Source: Nitrospirae bacterium JdFR-85 (GTDB taxonomy: Bacteria; Nitrospirota; Thermodesulfovibrionia; Thermodesulfovibrionales; JdFR-85). Taken from it: 34,076 nt of DNA. Shown here piece by piece: positions 1,956 through 21,771 of the stretch. The notes under the pieces were generated by a model, which searched no databases, was not told where the DNA came from, and saw only the letters and a list, made by a program, of their open reading frames with translations. The translations under genes were made by a program, and so were the position numbers. The first letter of the stretch is position 1, and every line of letters starts with the position of its first letter. The DNA lies in the NCBI GenBank assembly GCA_002011745.1, contig MTOU01000029.1, forward strand, positions 394 to 34,469, in the 5' to 3' direction.

Positions 1956-2990
1956 TTATTCTTTCAGGTGTGTGTAAAACTCCTTTGGCCGGAGCTCGGG
2001 GAAGTCAAAATTGAGGGCTAAAAAAGAGCGGATATCGGTGCAGAGGTGGCATTTTGAGAGGTAGCCCTCAGGGTCTTCCTCAAAACCTCTTTCTCTTGCA
2101 AAGTTATAAAGTCCCTGAAAGTCACTGTTTATAAGATAACTAATTACAGGATACCGTAGGGTATCAATCCCTTCGGATAAAAGCTCGTCCAGTCTCCGGC
2201 AGTCTCCAAGGCTTATTCCTCCACAGAAGCCAGGGACCAGGTTCCCATAGTTGTCAAAATGGTTATGAAGGCTTCTTAGAAAGGGGGTGATGCAAGGGGT
2301 ATTAAAGTAATATCTGGCAGACTTTGGAGGATAGAGGTTCTTTATTAAATTCTTTAGCATATATGGGGCTCTGCCCATCACAAAAAATTCTACATCACGG
2401 AGAAAGTTTTCCTTTCCCTCAATCCGGAGGTAATCTTCAAGTGAAACCCTGCCTTTAAATCCGTACAGTCTGAATCGTCTATAGTACTCCAGTTGATAGA
2501 CTATCACATTTCTTCCAAAGACCTTGAGGGCTATCCTTATTGCCCTTTCTGTCCTCTCAAAGGGGACAAACTCAAGATAGAAGGGGTTGACAGAGATCAT
2601 TATCCCTTTGAGCCCTTTGGCTTTAAGTAGTTTGAGTTTCTCTTTGGTCTTTCTGTCGTCCGTAGCCCAGAAACAGTTTGTCTCCACAAAGGTGGAAGGG
2701 ATTTTCAGCTCATTGGCAATCTCTACAGCCCTGAGGAGGAGTTCAAAATTCATAAAGGGTTCACCACCTGTGAAGTGTAACCCCTCGTTCAGTCCTATGG
2801 AGTTGCGTCCCCAAGGAGCAGGTCTGATCTTACCGGCAAGGTTTGAGAGCACTGCCTGAAGGTCTTCCTCTTTTATCCAGTCTCCACTCCAGCGCTGAGA
2901 GCATCCATAGATACAGTGTCTGCACCTTGCTGTGCACCTGTATGAGAGGATAAGCCCACCAGACAGAGGCACAGGAATTCTGACCTTCAT
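1956..2990 (-). CDS. Radical SAM protein of unknown substrate
   Basis: The 344-aa protein has the radical SAM cluster motif CTARCRHC (Cys19, Cys23, Cys26), with an extra Cys30, and the SAM-binding FTGGEPF around residues 73-79. Further cysteines follow in the C-terminal third (NTPCITPF, GFCGGISLGDC, KCHLC), suggesting an auxiliary Fe-S cluster as in SPASM-like enzymes. It would generate a 5'-deoxyadenosyl radical, but the substrate is not evident. It overlaps the Nudix gene by four bases (ATGA), so translation is probably coupled. It is the last gene of the long minus-strand run that begins at nifH. It lacks the NifB sequence features I would expect, so it is not called nifB. Confidence 0.8.
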   Translation of the reverse strand: MKVRIPVPLSGGLILSYRCTARCRHCIYGCSQRWSGDWIKEEDLQAVLSNLAGKIRPAPWGRNSIGLNEGLHFTGGEPFMNFELLLRAVEIANELKIPSTFVETNCFWATDDRKTKEKLKLLKAKGLKGIMISVNPFYLEFVPFERTERAIRIALKVFGRNVIVYQLEYYRRFRLYGFKGRVSLEDYLRIEGKENFLRDVEFFVMGRAPYMLKNLIKNLYPPKSARYYFNTPCITPFLRSLHNHFDNYGNLVPGFCGGISLGDCRRLDELLSEGIDTLRYPVISYLINSDFQGLYNFARERGFEEDPEGYLSKCHLCTDIRSFLALNFDFPELRPKEFYTHLKE

Positions 2991-4657: not shown

Positions 4658-5059
4658 TTATGAAGTCTCTTCATCCATTGCCTTCTTGAGCCAAGGTGGT
4701 GGTGATTTTTTGAGGACCTCAACCAATTGTTGAAGCGCCTCCTCAATAGTAATTACCTCCTTAACCTTTACAGGCATTATTCCTGCCTTGGAGAGGCGGG
4801 CTGCTGAAGGTCCTCCAATCTCTGTGAAATATATGAGTTTACAATCTACAAGTCTGTCCACCTTTTTCTGCACCCTGTCTTCATGGATCTCTCCCAACCC
4901 CTTTGTCTCCTCTATCTCCCTGTCTCTACCTTCGGCAAACTTCCTAAGTTCAATGAATCTATAGCCCTCTTTTGATACTTCATAGATGGCAAACATACCA
5001 CTTCTGCCGAAGTGTTCATTCACATTTTTGCCATCTGTGGTGGCAAAGGCTACCTTCAT
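4658..5059 (-). CDS. nifX: NifX, FeMo-cofactor biosynthesis protein
   Basis: The 133-aa protein belongs to the dinitrogenase iron-molybdenum cofactor family (NifX/NifY/NifB C-terminal domain). It has MKVAFATTDGKNVNEHFGRS, with the conserved His in NEHFG, and a central FTEIGGPSAARL segment. NifX binds cofactor precursors and NifB-co and hands them to NifEN. The gene overlaps the 3' end of nifEN by four bases (ATGA), so translation is likely coupled and supports cofactor assembly on the fused scaffold. The length is close to the usual 130-160 aa. A stand-alone NifB C-terminal-like protein is the alternative; context favours NifX. Confidence 0.88.
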   Translation of the reverse strand: MKVAFATTDGKNVNEHFGRSGMFAIYEVSKEGYRFIELRKFAEGRDREIEETKGLGEIHEDRVQKKVDRLVDCKLIYFTEIGGPSAARLSKAGIMPVKVKEVITIEEALQQLVEVLKKSPPPWLKKAMDEETS

Positions 5060-7662
5060 TGGTGCACCTCCATTGATAGATTTGCTAAATCATTGATTAA
5101 GGTTAAACTTCCCCTGTAACCGACTGTTACCTTTGTGGTGTATCCAATAGCCCTATACACTGGAAAGCCCATCTGATATAAGGGGACCTTGAGTTGTCTT
5201 GATAAATTCTGCGCACGGGAGTTTGAGATTATAAGCTCAGCGTTGCGGTCTATAGAGAAAAGACCTCCGACTATCACCTCTTCTGCTTTTATCCTCTCCT
5301 CAGAACCAGCAGAATAAGGAACTACTGCAACTGTTACCTTGGCTCCCATCTCTTCCAAGAGTTGGGAGACCTGCAGGGCAAGGTCATTTTCGAGGGCTAC
5401 AGAAACTCTCCTGCCTGCAAGATAAAAATGGGCATCCCTCATACCGTCAATTAAGCTTCTCCTCTGTCTCCTGAATCTTTCTGGCATGGTTCTGCCACTA
5501 AGAACAGATAGCACCTCCATGAATCTGTCCACTGCCCTAAGCCCAGAGAGACCATCTATGAGTGTGTATTCCACCCTTGTGATCTCTTTAAGCAGCTCTG
5601 CAGGTGTCTGCATGCTTGCTCCAATCGCTATTGTAAACTCTGATCTTCCCATCTCTCTGATCTCAGAGACCTTGGTGCCTCCTTGGGCAAGGGAAGAGAA
5701 TCCCTGTCTGCTTCCATCAAGGCTTGATAGATCAGGCAGAAGAAGGGGTTTCAATCCAAAGACCTCAACCATCTCACGGACCTCTGAGAAGTCTGAAGGG
5801 GTTAGATGTCCACCCACAAGTATATTGATCTGCCCAAGTATCTTTTCTCTATCAGGCACCACCAGTTCTTCTATAAGCCTACATACCGTGGTCTGATATC
5901 CCTTTTCTAAGGAATTCTTAAAGTCAGGTGTGGATATATAGAGCAGTTCAGTGCCTGTCTGTTTAAACAGAGGTTTTAACTCTCCTATGATCCTTTTAAT
6001 GTCCTCCCCTTTTACTTCTGTAAGTCCACTACTCAAGACACCCACAATCTCAGGAGAAAGGATCCTTCGGAGTTTCAGCAGAGTGTCTCTGAGCCTTTCT
6101 TCTCCTCCCAGAATCACATCCTCGGTAAAGAGTTTTGAACCCTGTAAGGCAATAGGTTCCCTGAAGTGCCTTGTAAGGAGCGCCTTTGCAAGGAAGACAC
6201 AACCCTGTGAACCATGGATAACTGGCAAAGCCCTGTCTATTCCCTGAAAGGCAATGACAGCACCTGTAGATGCTGGAAGTTTAAGGGGATTTATAACCAC
6301 ATCCGGGTTCTGAAAGTTTTTTGATTTTTCAAGGGTCATTCTTGATTCCTTTCCCTGGGAGACCCTCACGACTTTTGGCTCCTGACTGAAGAAGTGGATA
6401 CTTCTGCTGATGTCTTCAGCAAAGGTGACAAGCCCTTTATATCCTGCATAAGCCCTATGCCGTTCCTGATTCACATCCACAAAAGGGAACCCTTCTTTCA
6501 TGGCCAGGTAGAGGTTTCTGCCGCCTGCAATTAGTATGTCTGCTTTCTTTTCCTTCATAAGGGCTTTAAGCCTTTGAGGACTTACATCTTCGTACAATGG
6601 AGCGTCTTCACCAAGCAGCGCCTTCATCTTCTCTTCATCCTCATAGGTACTCTTTTTTGTGCCCACAGCAACTACCTCCATCCCGAGATCTAAAAGGGCA
6701 GAGATAAAGGACCAGCTTTTCACCCCACCTGTATAAAGCACCGCTCTTTTGCCTTTCAAATGGGAGAACTCCTTCAACTGCTGTTCAAGCCATCTTTCAT
6801 TTGTTTCTATTATCTTAGAGAGTTTTGGCCCTATATTGAGCATCGAATCTACCAATCTCAGAGCCTTTGTTGTCTCTGTTTTCCCAAAAAAGGAGACTTC
6901 AATGTAAGGGATACCATACTTATACTCCATCTCTTTTGCCACATTCAGAAGGGCGCGGCTGCAGATAACCAGATTAAGTCTGGCTCTGTGTGCATAGGTT
7001 ATCTCCTCAAAGGTAGAGTCTCCTGTAATTTTTGAAAGAACTCTTATACCAGCCTCTTTAAGAAGAGGCTCCACGAGCCAGAGGTCTCCTGCAATATTGT
7101 ACTCACCAATGAGATTTATATCATGGGCTGTTGTATAGGGAGGCTCACCAGTGCCTATTACCTCTTCAAGAAGCACCTCTCCTGCAATCCTATTTCCCAA
7201 ATTTTTGGGGCCTACAAAGCCAGGTGCATTGACAGGGATTACCCGTCCAGAGCCTATCCTCTTTTCTGCCTCTTTACAGACCGCTTCAATATTCTCACCT
7301 ATTAGACCACTCACACAGGTTGCATAGACAAAGATGGCAGAAGGTTTAACGGTCTCGTAAGTATAGAGTATAGCATTGTAGAGTTTATCCTCAGAGCCAT
7401 GTATAATATCCAGTTCAGACAGATCTGTGGTGAAGCCCATCCGATAGAGGCTGCCTTTTTCTGATAGAGTGCCCCTTGTCTGCCAGGAATTACCACAGCA
7501 AGCAATAGGCCCATGAATCAGATGGGCAGTATCAGCAATACATTGAAGCACTATTGTCGCTCCATCAAAGGCACATGATTCTCCTCCTCGGCTGCGGCAG
7601 AGCCTTTCTCTTTCCGGTCTGTTACAGCCCCTTTCGATCAATCTATCAACATCGCTTAACAT
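5056..7662 (-). CDS. nifEN: NifE-NifN fusion, FeMo-cofactor scaffold
   Basis: The 868-aa protein is two nitrogenase-like subunits in one chain. Residues 1 to about 430 are NifE: Cys30 in GGESCAFDGA, Cys55/56 in HGPIACCGNSW, Cys116 in YATCVSGLIGE, Cys234 in LNLVICSRA, and DVNQERHRAYAGY near 397-408. From about 450 on it is NifN: INPLKLPASTGAVIAFQGIDR, then HGSQGC with Cys488, and a C-terminal IGYTTKVTVGYRG. NifEN is the heterotetramer on which NifB-co is converted to FeMo-cofactor; a fusion would assemble as a homodimer. No frameshift or internal stop is seen and the reading frame is continuous. It begins 20 bases after nifK with GGGGAG upstream of the ATG. Confidence 0.93.
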   Translation of the reverse strand: MLSDVDRLIERGCNRPERERLCRSRGGESCAFDGATIVLQCIADTAHLIHGPIACCGNSWQTRGTLSEKGSLYRMGFTTDLSELDIIHGSEDKLYNAILYTYETVKPSAIFVYATCVSGLIGENIEAVCKEAEKRIGSGRVIPVNAPGFVGPKNLGNRIAGEVLLEEVIGTGEPPYTTAHDINLIGEYNIAGDLWLVEPLLKEAGIRVLSKITGDSTFEEITYAHRARLNLVICSRALLNVAKEMEYKYGIPYIEVSFFGKTETTKALRLVDSMLNIGPKLSKIIETNERWLEQQLKEFSHLKGKRAVLYTGGVKSWSFISALLDLGMEVVAVGTKKSTYEDEEKMKALLGEDAPLYEDVSPQRLKALMKEKKADILIAGGRNLYLAMKEGFPFVDVNQERHRAYAGYKGLVTFAEDISRSIHFFSQEPKVVRVSQGKESRMTLEKSKNFQNPDVVINPLKLPASTGAVIAFQGIDRALPVIHGSQGCVFLAKALLTRHFREPIALQGSKLFTEDVILGGEERLRDTLLKLRRILSPEIVGVLSSGLTEVKGEDIKRIIGELKPLFKQTGTELLYISTPDFKNSLEKGYQTTVCRLIEELVVPDREKILGQINILVGGHLTPSDFSEVREMVEVFGLKPLLLPDLSSLDGSRQGFSSLAQGGTKVSEIREMGRSEFTIAIGASMQTPAELLKEITRVEYTLIDGLSGLRAVDRFMEVLSVLSGRTMPERFRRQRRSLIDGMRDAHFYLAGRRVSVALENDLALQVSQLLEEMGAKVTVAVVPYSAGSEERIKAEEVIVGGLFSIDRNAELIISNSRAQNLSRQLKVPLYQMGFPVYRAIGYTTKVTVGYRGSLTLINDLANLSMEVHQ

Positions 7663-17634: not shown

Positions 17635-18192
17635 TTACACCTCCAAAATTTCTTTCTCTTTTTTTTCTAATAACTCATCGATCTTTTCTATATAACTGTT
17701 GGTGAGCTTCTGCACATCTTCAAGCTCTCTCTTCAGTTCATCCTCGCTTATGAGTTTGTCTTTCTGCATCTTTTTAAGTTCATCATTTATATCCCTTCTT
17801 ATATTTCTTACTGCCACTCTTGCCTCCTCAGCCCTCTTTCTCACCATCTTCACAAGTTGCTTTCGCCGCTCTTCTGTCAGAGGTGGTATAGCAATCCTTA
17901 TAATCTTACCATCATTTGTGGGTGTAAGTCCAAGGTCAGACTCCAGAATAGCCCTCTCTATCACAGGTATCATCTTCTGTTCCCATGGCTGGATGGTTAT
18001 CATTTTGGGTTCAGGTACTGACAAGGCAGCCACTTGATTGATAGGGGTCTGTACACCATAGTAATCAACAGTAATTCCATCAAGAAGTGAAAGTGATGCC
18101 CTTCCTGTTCTGACGCTGGCAAAGTCTTTTTTTAATACCTCCACAGATTTTTCCATCCGTTCCTTGGCCTTCTTTTTTATCTCCTTTAGCAT
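17635..18192 (-). CDS. frr: Ribosome recycling factor
   Basis: The 185-aa protein is full length. It has [43 protein letters not shown] and [37 protein letters not shown] (given in parts), all RRF signatures. With EF-G it splits the post-termination ribosome. The gene follows pyrH by 35 bases in the classical order rpsB-tsf-pyrH-frr. Confidence 0.96.
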
Positions 18193-18227
18193 GTTACCCT
18201 CCCTTAGAGCATCTTAGCATTTGAACT

Positions 18228-19541
<1,314 letters not shown>

Positions 19542-19545
<4 letters not shown>

Positions 19546-20339
19546 TCTACAACCTCCTTACTCTCTGTTTTCTCGGCTACTGCTTCTGTAGCCTCATCTT
19601 CCTGTATCTTCTCCTCTATAGTCTCTTGCATCGCCTCTTCTTCCAGTTTCTTCTCCAACATCTGTTTGCCCTCAAGCACTGCATCTGCCATCTTTGAGGT
19701 GATAAGTCTTATAGCCCTTATGGCATCATCATTGCCTGGTATAACATAGTCTATAAGATCAGGGTCACAGTTGGTATCCACTATCGCAACTATAGGGATA
19801 TTGAGTTTTCTTGCCTCATTCACAGCTATGTATTCCTTCTTAGGGTCCACTATAAAAACAGCTCCAGGCAGGGTCTGCATCTCCTTTATACCACCAAGAT
19901 TTTTCTCGAGCTTGGAGCGGGTCTTCTCTATCTTAGAAACCTCTTTCTTTGTCAATTTCTCATAAATTCCTTCCTCTTTCATTCTTTCTATTTTCTTCAG
20001 TTTTTCGATGCTCTTTTTTATTGTGGAGAAGTTGGTGAGCATCCCTCCAAGCCATCTGTTATTAACATAAAAGGCACCTGCCCGTGCCGCCTCTTCCTTA
20101 ATAGCATCCTGTGCCTGTTTCTTGGTTCCTACAAACAGCACATGCTCTCCAGAGGCAGACACTTCTCTCATAAAAGCATAGGCATCCTCTATACCTTTGA
20201 GAGTTTTTTGAAGATCAATTATATAGATGCCATTCCTCTCTCCGAAGATATACCTTTTCATCTTTGGGTTCCACCTTCTGACCTGATGCCCAAAGTGGAC
20301 ACCTGCCTCAAGCAACTCTTTCATGGTTACCACTGCCAT
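19542..20339 (-). CDS. rpsB: 30S ribosomal protein S2
   Basis: The 265-aa protein has [45 protein letters not shown] and [24 protein letters not shown] (in parts), all S2 signatures. The C terminus is a long acidic extension rich in Glu. AAGGAGGTAG precedes the ATG. It heads the rpsB-tsf-pyrH-frr run and has a structured leader. Confidence 0.96.
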
Positions 20340-20376
20340 TTTCTACCTCCTTAATGTAGGTTTTTTCCTCCGCCTT

Positions 20377-20418
20377 CGCCGTTGAGACCCGTAACTGTAC
20401 AGGCACCTTTCAACGGCG
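20377..20418 (-). promoter_or_regulatory. Structured RNA leader of rpsB
   Basis: On the minus strand, CGCCGTTGA (20418-20410) pairs perfectly with TCAACGGCG (20385-20377). Inside it CCTGTA (20403-20398) pairs with TACGGG (20393-20388) around a CAGT loop. The inner stem has a G-U wobble in the rpsB sense but a C-A mismatch in the other sense, which points to the rpsB transcript. No T-run follows, so it is not a terminator. It ends 37 bases before the rpsB ATG. Autoregulation by S2 is a reasonable guess. Confidence 0.55.
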
Positions 20419-20453
20419 ATATACAGGCGTGTGTAGTCAGAGTAATGCCAAAA

Positions 20454-20483
20454 ACCATAACATATTTATCTGATTTTTTTCAA
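20454..20483 (-). promoter_or_regulatory. Candidate rpsB promoter
   Basis: Read on the minus strand, TTGAAA (20483-20478) and TATGGT (20459-20454) are 18 bases apart. Transcription would begin near 20447 and include the whole leader hairpin. Confidence 0.4.
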
Positions 20484-20566: not shown

Positions 20567-20596
20567 TTGACAAAATTCAATAATAACTTTTATTAT
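20567..20596 (+). promoter_or_regulatory. Promoter of the glutamate synthase operon
   Basis: A perfect TTGACA (20567-20572) lies 18 bases from TATTAT (20591-20596). Transcription would start near 20603, about 40 bases before gltB1. Confidence 0.6.
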
Positions 20597-20643: not shown

Positions 20644-21771
20644 ATGTGCAGACTTGCTGCCATAACATCGGAAAGCTATATATCTCCCTTAGAAAACATT
20701 GCCGCTCTTGAGGCAATGAAGGAAGGGTATGACGGCTCTGGTATGGGGTTGGTCCTCAAAAACCTTGGTGGAGAGTTTGAAGAGCTCAAGGAGTATCCTA
20801 TACTTTCTGGTATCTGTTCAAGAGAAGGGATCAAGAGGCTTGATGAATATATGGATCATCTTGGGTTCAAGCTTATTTATACCTGGACCCCAAAGATTAA
20901 ACCCGTTGCAGGGGTTAAACAAAGAGATTATTACTTTGGCCGAGTTTATGACTATCCTGATGAATATAAAGACAAGCCATGGGAAGAAAAAGAAGATCTG
21001 CTTCTGAGAACGAGGGTTACCCTGAGGAGAATGGGCGAGAGGGATGAATCCATTATTGTGTTCTCCTTCTATCCAGATGTGCTCATCATAAAGGAGGTGG
21101 GAGACCCTGTAGCACTCGGTGAGTTTTTCGGATTTGATAGCTCAAACCTAAGGGCAAAGATCATTTTTGCACAGGGCAGACAGAATACAAACTATGACAT
21201 AAACCTCTATGCCTGTCATCCCTTCTTCATACAGGGCTATGGCTCTATGACAAATGGCGAGAATACGGCATTCGTGCCCATTAAGGAGTTTCTGATGAGC
21301 AGAGGCTTTCCTGGCTACATAGGCTATCAGAGTGACAGTGAGGTGTTTACTCATATTCTTCACTATACATGTAAAATGCTCGGGCTTCCCCTTATTTATT
21401 ATAAAGATGTGATAACCCCTCTTAAGACATCGGAAATACAGCAGAGGGAAGACAGGGATGTGGTACAGATGCTGAAGATCACGCTGAGACCCCTCTGCAT
21501 AGATGGGCCCAACTGCGTTATAGGGTTTGTACCTGATGGGACCTGTTTTATGGTTCAGGATTCAAAAAAACTCCGTCCAGGGGTTGTAGGAGGAGTAAAG
21601 GGGAGAGTGGGGCTCATGTCAGAGGAGTGTGGTCTTGACAGGGCTGTTCCTGAGAGAGACAGGGCAAAGGACACTTTTCCAATGAAATACGACATGGTTA
21701 TTGTCTCGCCAGAGGCAAAGGAGGTAAAGGTATGGAACCAGAGGTACGGCTGGACCACAATTATCAATTGA
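20644..21771 (+). CDS. Glutamate synthase, glutamine amidotransferase subunit (archaeal type)
   Basis: The 375-aa protein begins MCRLAAITSE. Cys2 is the N-terminal nucleophile of class-II glutaminases after Met removal, which fixes the start although no ribosome binding site is visible. It carries EGYDGSGMGLVL and later ACHPFFIQGYGSMTNGENTAF, as in stand-alone GOGAT amidotransferase proteins. It would release ammonia from glutamine for the synthase subunit next door. The end overlaps the next gene by 40 bases. This corresponds to the first piece of GltB split into separate genes. Confidence 0.88.
   Translation: MCRLAAITSESYISPLENIAALEAMKEGYDGSGMGLVLKNLGGEFEELKEYPILSGICSREGIKRLDEYMDHLGFKLIYTWTPKIKPVAGVKQRDYYFGRVYDYPDEYKDKPWEEKEDLLLRTRVTLRRMGERDESIIVFSFYPDVLIIKEVGDPVALGEFFGFDSSNLRAKIIFAQGRQNTNYDINLYACHPFFIQGYGSMTNGENTAFVPIKEFLMSRGFPGYIGYQSDSEVFTHILHYTCKMLGLPLIYYKDVITPLKTSEIQQREDRDVVQMLKITLRPLCIDGPNCVIGFVPDGTCFMVQDSKKLRPGVVGGVKGRVGLMSEECGLDRAVPERDRAKDTFPMKYDMVIVSPEAKEVKVWNQRYGWTTIIN

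Follow-up and report, generated by a model that had tools for sequence, protein, structure and literature searches.

A candidate ribosomal protein S2 leader RNA upstream of rpsB in a Nitrospirota bacterium

The gene rpsB of Nitrospirae bacterium JdFR-85, which encodes ribosomal protein S2, is preceded by a GC-rich hairpin, and this raises the question of whether the hairpin belongs to a selected RNA structure and, if so, of what kind. We analysed a stretch of 34,076 nucleotides from contig MTOU01000029.1 (hereafter the window), in which a first-pass annotation had proposed a two-stem RNA at 20418-20377 on the minus strand, perhaps an S2 autoregulatory site of a type not yet described for this lineage. 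Our comparisons make it very probable that the hairpin is part of an S2 leader of the rpsB motif class, which would act in cis in the 5′ UTR of rpsB-tsf and be bound by excess S2.

Architecture and gene context of the leader

The hairpin reads CGCCGUUGA-AAGGU-GCCUGUA-CAGU-UACGGGU-C-UCAACGGCG, and sequence and fold both confirm that its outer stem is a perfect one of 9 bp, as had been claimed. The inner stem has 7 bp, including two G.U pairs. The predicted folding energy is -20.7 kcal/mol versus a mean of -10.46 for shuffled copies (z -3.97), with only one of 200 shuffles equalling it. The earlier argument that the inner stem keeps its pairing only in the rpsB sense holds in part. The two G.U pairs do become C.A mismatches on the plus strand, but that strand folds well anyway by using other inner pairs (-17.9, z -4.47, 0 of 200 shuffles). 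Folding energy alone therefore cannot separate the strands, and the strand argument is weak when taken alone.

These coordinates cover only the distal portion of a larger element, which occupies 20436-20358 on the minus strand. From its 5′ side, it contains a CACACG box (20428-20433) read from the sequence, whose final two bases open a proximal stem, P1a, with the 5′ strand CGCCU (20425-20429) and the 3′ strand AGGCG (20371-20375), both supported by the fold and by the covariance model R1 described below. The fold places a 5′ bulge, GUAUA (20420-20424), between the two stem halves, and a similar one-sided bulge is present in the folds of many relatives. The distal stem, P1b, is the outer stem of the hairpin above; its 5′ strand CGCCGUUGA (20410-20418) is supported by the fold and by compensatory changes relative to a genome of the same genus, and its 3′ strand UCAACGGCG (20377-20385) by the fold. 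P1b encloses the AAGGU strand (20405-20409) and the inner hairpin, P3 (20387-20404, from the fold). Downstream of P1a is the sequence GAGG (20367-20370), which the leader alignment shows to be part of a conserved GGCGGAGG box, and then ACCU (20358-20361). The latter is complementary to AGGU (20408-20405) of the AAGGU strand, and the two form the 3′ and 5′ sides of a candidate 4-bp pseudoknot, assigned by a complementarity test.

ACCU ends five nucleotides ahead of the predicted Shine-Dalgarno sequence of rpsB, AAGGAGG (20346-20352), which was read from the sequence. The rpsB gene itself (19542-20339, minus strand; TIGR01011, 369.7 bits, cut-off 76.3) starts at 20339, such that the element directly precedes it, and is followed in the same direction by tsf, pyrH and frr (17635-19545).

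At 20454-20483 on the same strand there is a promoter-like site whose -10 sequence is of the extended type (TTGAAA, 18 nucleotides, and TATGGT with TG before this second hexamer). Three other promoter-like matches on this strand, which make four in all, lie farther upstream. The extended -10 word T[AG]TGNTA is found upstream of the CAC box, within about 77 nucleotides, in 41 of 42 leaders including that of the window, whereas over 200 letter shuffles the average was 2.6 leaders and the highest count 7. Given this site and the conserved word, the RNA most likely starts near 20447, in which case the whole element would be transcribed. By eye, a small extra inverted repeat can be seen close to where the RNA would be expected to start in L026, L027, L029, L030, L114, L116, L117 and other leaders. 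These are among the leaders with a longer distance between promoter word and motif; the repeat lies downstream of the -10 word and upstream of the CAC box, and none was seen in the window.

On the other side of the leader is a divergent frame of 375 amino acids (20644-21771, plus strand), for which there is no NCBIfam match at 1e-10. The frames that follow it resemble glutamate synthase genes. It is unlikely that the element serves this divergent gene, as a promoter-like site for it is located beyond the element at 20567-20596.

Conservation and covariation among Nitrospirota

There are 44 distinct Nitrospirota rpsB leaders in our set, and 42 of them, including that of the window, share a common frame (39 recognized by a pattern, and L002, L030 and L034, which the pattern missed, assigned by hand). 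This frame consists of CACACG, a GCC...GGC proximal stem, the 5′ bulge, the distal stem, a strand with GGU at its 3′ end, an inner hairpin whose length varies and GGCGGAGG, which is followed in the relatives by an A-rich linker containing ACC and then by a Shine-Dalgarno sequence. The leader set leaves out L031, which has the same contig and place as L004, as well as G011 (no match) and G013 (a fragment without a start); the two leaders that lack the motif are L021 and L025. Among the 42 aligned leaders, C4, C6 and A7 of the CACACG box and the GGT of the AAGGU strand are invariant, and C8 and G9 are conserved in at least 90%. The frame was also recognized by eye in 16 of 19 further leaders, six of which had been chosen because R1 had matched their genomes. 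The three without it all belong to the family f10.

Compensatory changes are present in the relatives, and they support the earlier proposal that this leader contains an RNA structure under selection. Among 14 compact leaders that exclude the window (alignment A2, picked from 18 listed; 12 come from other families, while L033 and L036 are of unstated family, and longer leaders are absent), 10 of 15 pairs exhibit changes on both sides, versus a mean of 6.2 in shuffled controls, only 4 of 500 of which were as high. Paired cells amount to 87.5%, versus 78.8% after shuffling (0 of 500 as high) and 40.5-62.0% with slid partners. Further pair types number 22 versus 19.0 in the shuffles, a level reached by 27 of 500. 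The relatedness of the leaders remains in these shuffle controls, as it does in the permutation controls given below.

A further comparison was made with L002, the leader of a genome of the same genus (G001), using separate folds of both P1 domains. Among 14 P1 pairs, eight are identical, five have changed on both sides, one has changed on one side and none is broken. The double changes include positions in the proximal CGCCU/AGGCG stem, which is nearly fixed elsewhere, and the nine pairs of the outer stem recognized by the first-pass annotation contain two double changes and one replacement of G-C by G-U.

When whole leaders are folded, 35 of the 42 form the proximal stem. L002 is among the seven without it, and the whole L002 leader folds differently by energy alone; L016 was scored as a miss with the script using the first of two GGCGGAGG words. 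For the P1 domain, the median z is -1.97 (n=42), and values fall below -2 in 20 of 42. Some 3′ stem strands are misplaced in the MAFFT alignments A1 (42 leaders), A5 and A6 (window family), because hairpin lengths differ and because of an insertion in L002, and therefore the stem counts were made on A2 and on separate folds. Alignments A3 and A4 were fitted to the model and were left out of these counts. The insertion in L002 (about 2287-2392, minus strand) carries GGGUCUUGAGACCC and separates the GGAGG box from the pseudoknot strand.

The candidate pseudoknot is supported by a permutation test in which the mean complementary run was 4.46 versus 4.03 with permuted partners for 54 distinct Nitrospirota leaders, and 3.79 versus 3.26 for 56 other leaders; none of 2000 permutations reached the observed value in either group. 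Runs of three pairs or fewer were found in 10 of 54 Nitrospirota and 24 of 56 other leaders, a level that permuted partners also reach, and some of these low scores stem from the script placing a strand wrongly. For L002, the linker had been truncated and the score derives from a different ACCC word; for L015, the GGU that was scored lies inside an insertion rather than at the junction; and linkers were misplaced in L041, L046 and L091 (scores of 0-2). Five of the 72 rows of A3 were left out for a misaligned junction (L115, L134, L034, L014 and L017), and the remaining 67 reduce to the 54 distinct leaders. Likewise, 18 of 74 outside loci were left out where the script found no anchor, junction word or linker.

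Full exchanges of the two strands are nevertheless evident: AGGU:ACCU in the window and L020, UGGU:ACCA as a common form, GGGU:ACCC in L002 (read from the sequence) and CCGGU:ACCGG in L153. Class-level relatives add UUAGU:ACUAA (L158) and CAGU:ACUG (L160-L163), and in six class-level relatives GGU:ACC is replaced by AGU:ACU. In L155 and L164 the complementarity is just three. RNAalifold applied to A1 pairs the GG of GGAGG with the CC of ACC, and this local hairpin would compete with the pseudoknot. The letter changes between relatives offer natural material for mutational tests.

Relationship to known S2 leaders

The rpsB motif was published by Meyer et al. (2009, PMC2704228), and in the passages of that article on the motif it is described as an RNA located upstream of rpsB with a long P1 stem capped by variable stems, a pseudoknot between a junction strand and a 3′ extension after P1, and a P2 stem that is missing in some members. 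The window has the same position, in the 5′ UTR of rpsB, and the same layout. P1a, the bulge and P1b make up a long P1 capped by P3, P2 is likewise missing, and the predicted pseudoknot joins the apical junction to the 3′ extension after P1. It differs in the size of the pseudoknot, which has 4 bp, whereas the same passages give five in the majority of groups and three in Firmicutes (PMC2704228). Thus, the suggestion of a type not yet described does not hold, both because of this architecture and because R1, which was built without the window, matches the S2 operator of Escherichia coli.

R1 was seeded with the 14 leaders of A2. There is a single match in the window (20359-20436, minus strand; 45.6 bits, E 3.7e-10), and it is the only one in the window's genome. 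R1 matches 52 of 198 genomes of the phylum exactly once each, at least nine of these 52 being seed genomes that match by construction, and finds no match in the other 146 under strict filters, which is not proof of absence. At all 30 of the R1 loci that were fetched, an S2 frame is located just downstream on the same strand. Ten more matches adjoin rpsB by coordinates, such that 30 + 10 of the 52 loci are covered. Among 75 further loci (74 that are mostly from Bacillota and Desulfo-lineages by title, plus E. coli), 48 match at E <=0.1 and 26 at 0.001.

The match in E. coli K-12 is to the rpsB leader (L120:277-349; 32.1 bits, E 2.4e-5 in 566 kb), the same stretch that Rfam designates t44. Passages of PMC10931766 on this leader report that it is an autogenous operator repressed by S2. 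Its boxes have the same order as those in the window, namely CACACG, stem, GGGGU, a GCCC-UUU-GGGG hairpin, GUGGAGG and AACCCC, and its pseudoknot is GGGGU:ACCCC. A blastn search of the window leader against E. coli genomes gave no match, so the homology, which is indicated by a model seeded exclusively with Nitrospirota leaders, is visible only with a structure model.

The existing Rfam models reach few of these leaders. There is no match to RF01815 (rpsB) in the window, its genome or any of 41 relatives' genomes under strict filters; its name, together with a Caulobacter match, leads us to infer that this family represents the 2009 rpsB motif. Similarly, there is no match to RF00127 (t44) in the window or its genome, and the only one in the 41 genomes is in the rpsB leader of G023, at 29.1 bits and below the cut-off. 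A sub-threshold Rfam search of the window returned only two snoRNA matches elsewhere, which we take as chance. A Thermotoga maritima control genome has a t44 match, which is consistent with a wide spread of S2 leaders.

No S2 leader in Nitrospirota was found in the literature searched, which included PMC10931766, PMC2659441, PMC6429828 and PMC5955585; the passages of PMC2704228 on the rpsB motif do not include this phylum, and in a portion of PMC7247131 rpsB is mentioned in a table row for an L13 leader. The RNA is of a known kind, and its lineage may be unreported. Our assignment would place a known element of ribosomal autocontrol in a phylum mostly missed by library models, with borders and pseudoknot partners now given for the rpsB gene of the window, and with R1 a single model recognizes Nitrospirota leaders as well as the E. 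coli operator.

Predicted function, alternatives and lineage-specific loss

Together, the model match to the E. coli operator, the conserved position and the covarying stems and pseudoknot argue for an S2 leader. S2 would probably bind the rpsB leader once the protein is in excess of its rRNA sites and stabilize the pseudoknotted form. S1 is reported to take part in S2 control in E. coli in passages of PMC10931766, and by analogy it may assist here. A pseudoknotted leader held against the ribosome binding site would then block entry of the 30S subunit and reduce translation of rpsB together with that of the genes that follow. However, the same passages describe the E. coli mechanism as unclear, with the ribosome binding site outside the operator structure (PMC10931766), and thus the blocking step is one that we infer.

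An unlikely alternative is a structural 5′ UTR element that is conserved for mRNA stability or ribosome standby and does not answer to S2. Conserved leaders can serve stability, and CACACG and GGAGG could be single-stranded contacts for S1 or the ribosome. Against this, R1 matches an E. coli operator for which repression by S2 is reported (PMC10931766), and rpsB follows every R1 locus that was fetched. We regard as very improbable that the strong GC-rich hairpin is a regulated terminator ahead of rpsB, and a terminator or attenuator was rejected as a candidate because there is no U run: the stem is followed by AAGGCGGAGGAAAAAACC, a terminator scan does not report this hairpin (its sole hit is at 20617-20604), and conservation runs past it towards the Shine-Dalgarno sequence. 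A chance hairpin, suggested by the folding of the plus strand and by the many relatives whose leaders show only a modest folding advantage over shuffles, is hardly credible given the frame in 42 of 44 leaders, the compensatory changes and the single R1 match in a whole genome.

The S2 leader assignment does not extend to family f10, where the motif is found in none of five rpsB leaders (L021, L025, L152, L154 and L157) and no Rfam family matches at gathering scores. L154 and L025 instead share another frame, CCUCUGU...ACAGAGG, ahead of the Shine-Dalgarno sequence, and yet another frame is common to L152 and L157. In L021, CCUCCUGU is complementary to the leader's own ACAGGAGG, a pairing that is absent from the lowest-energy fold. 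The f10 leaders are possibly replacement leaders. We tentatively suggest, with somewhat less than even confidence, that S2 autocontrol through a pseudoknotted leader is very old, being shared by Nitrospirota, Bacillota, Desulfo-lineages and Proteobacteria, and that f10 swapped it for unrelated leaders. If so, this family would allow tests of how a ribosomal operator is replaced.

Elsewhere in the window, there is a frame of 868 amino acids (5056-7662, minus strand) whose first half matches NifE and whose second half matches NifN (TIGR01283 and TIGR01285, both above the cut-off). By these profile matches it is a NifEN fusion, and the adjoining frames resemble nitrogenase genes.
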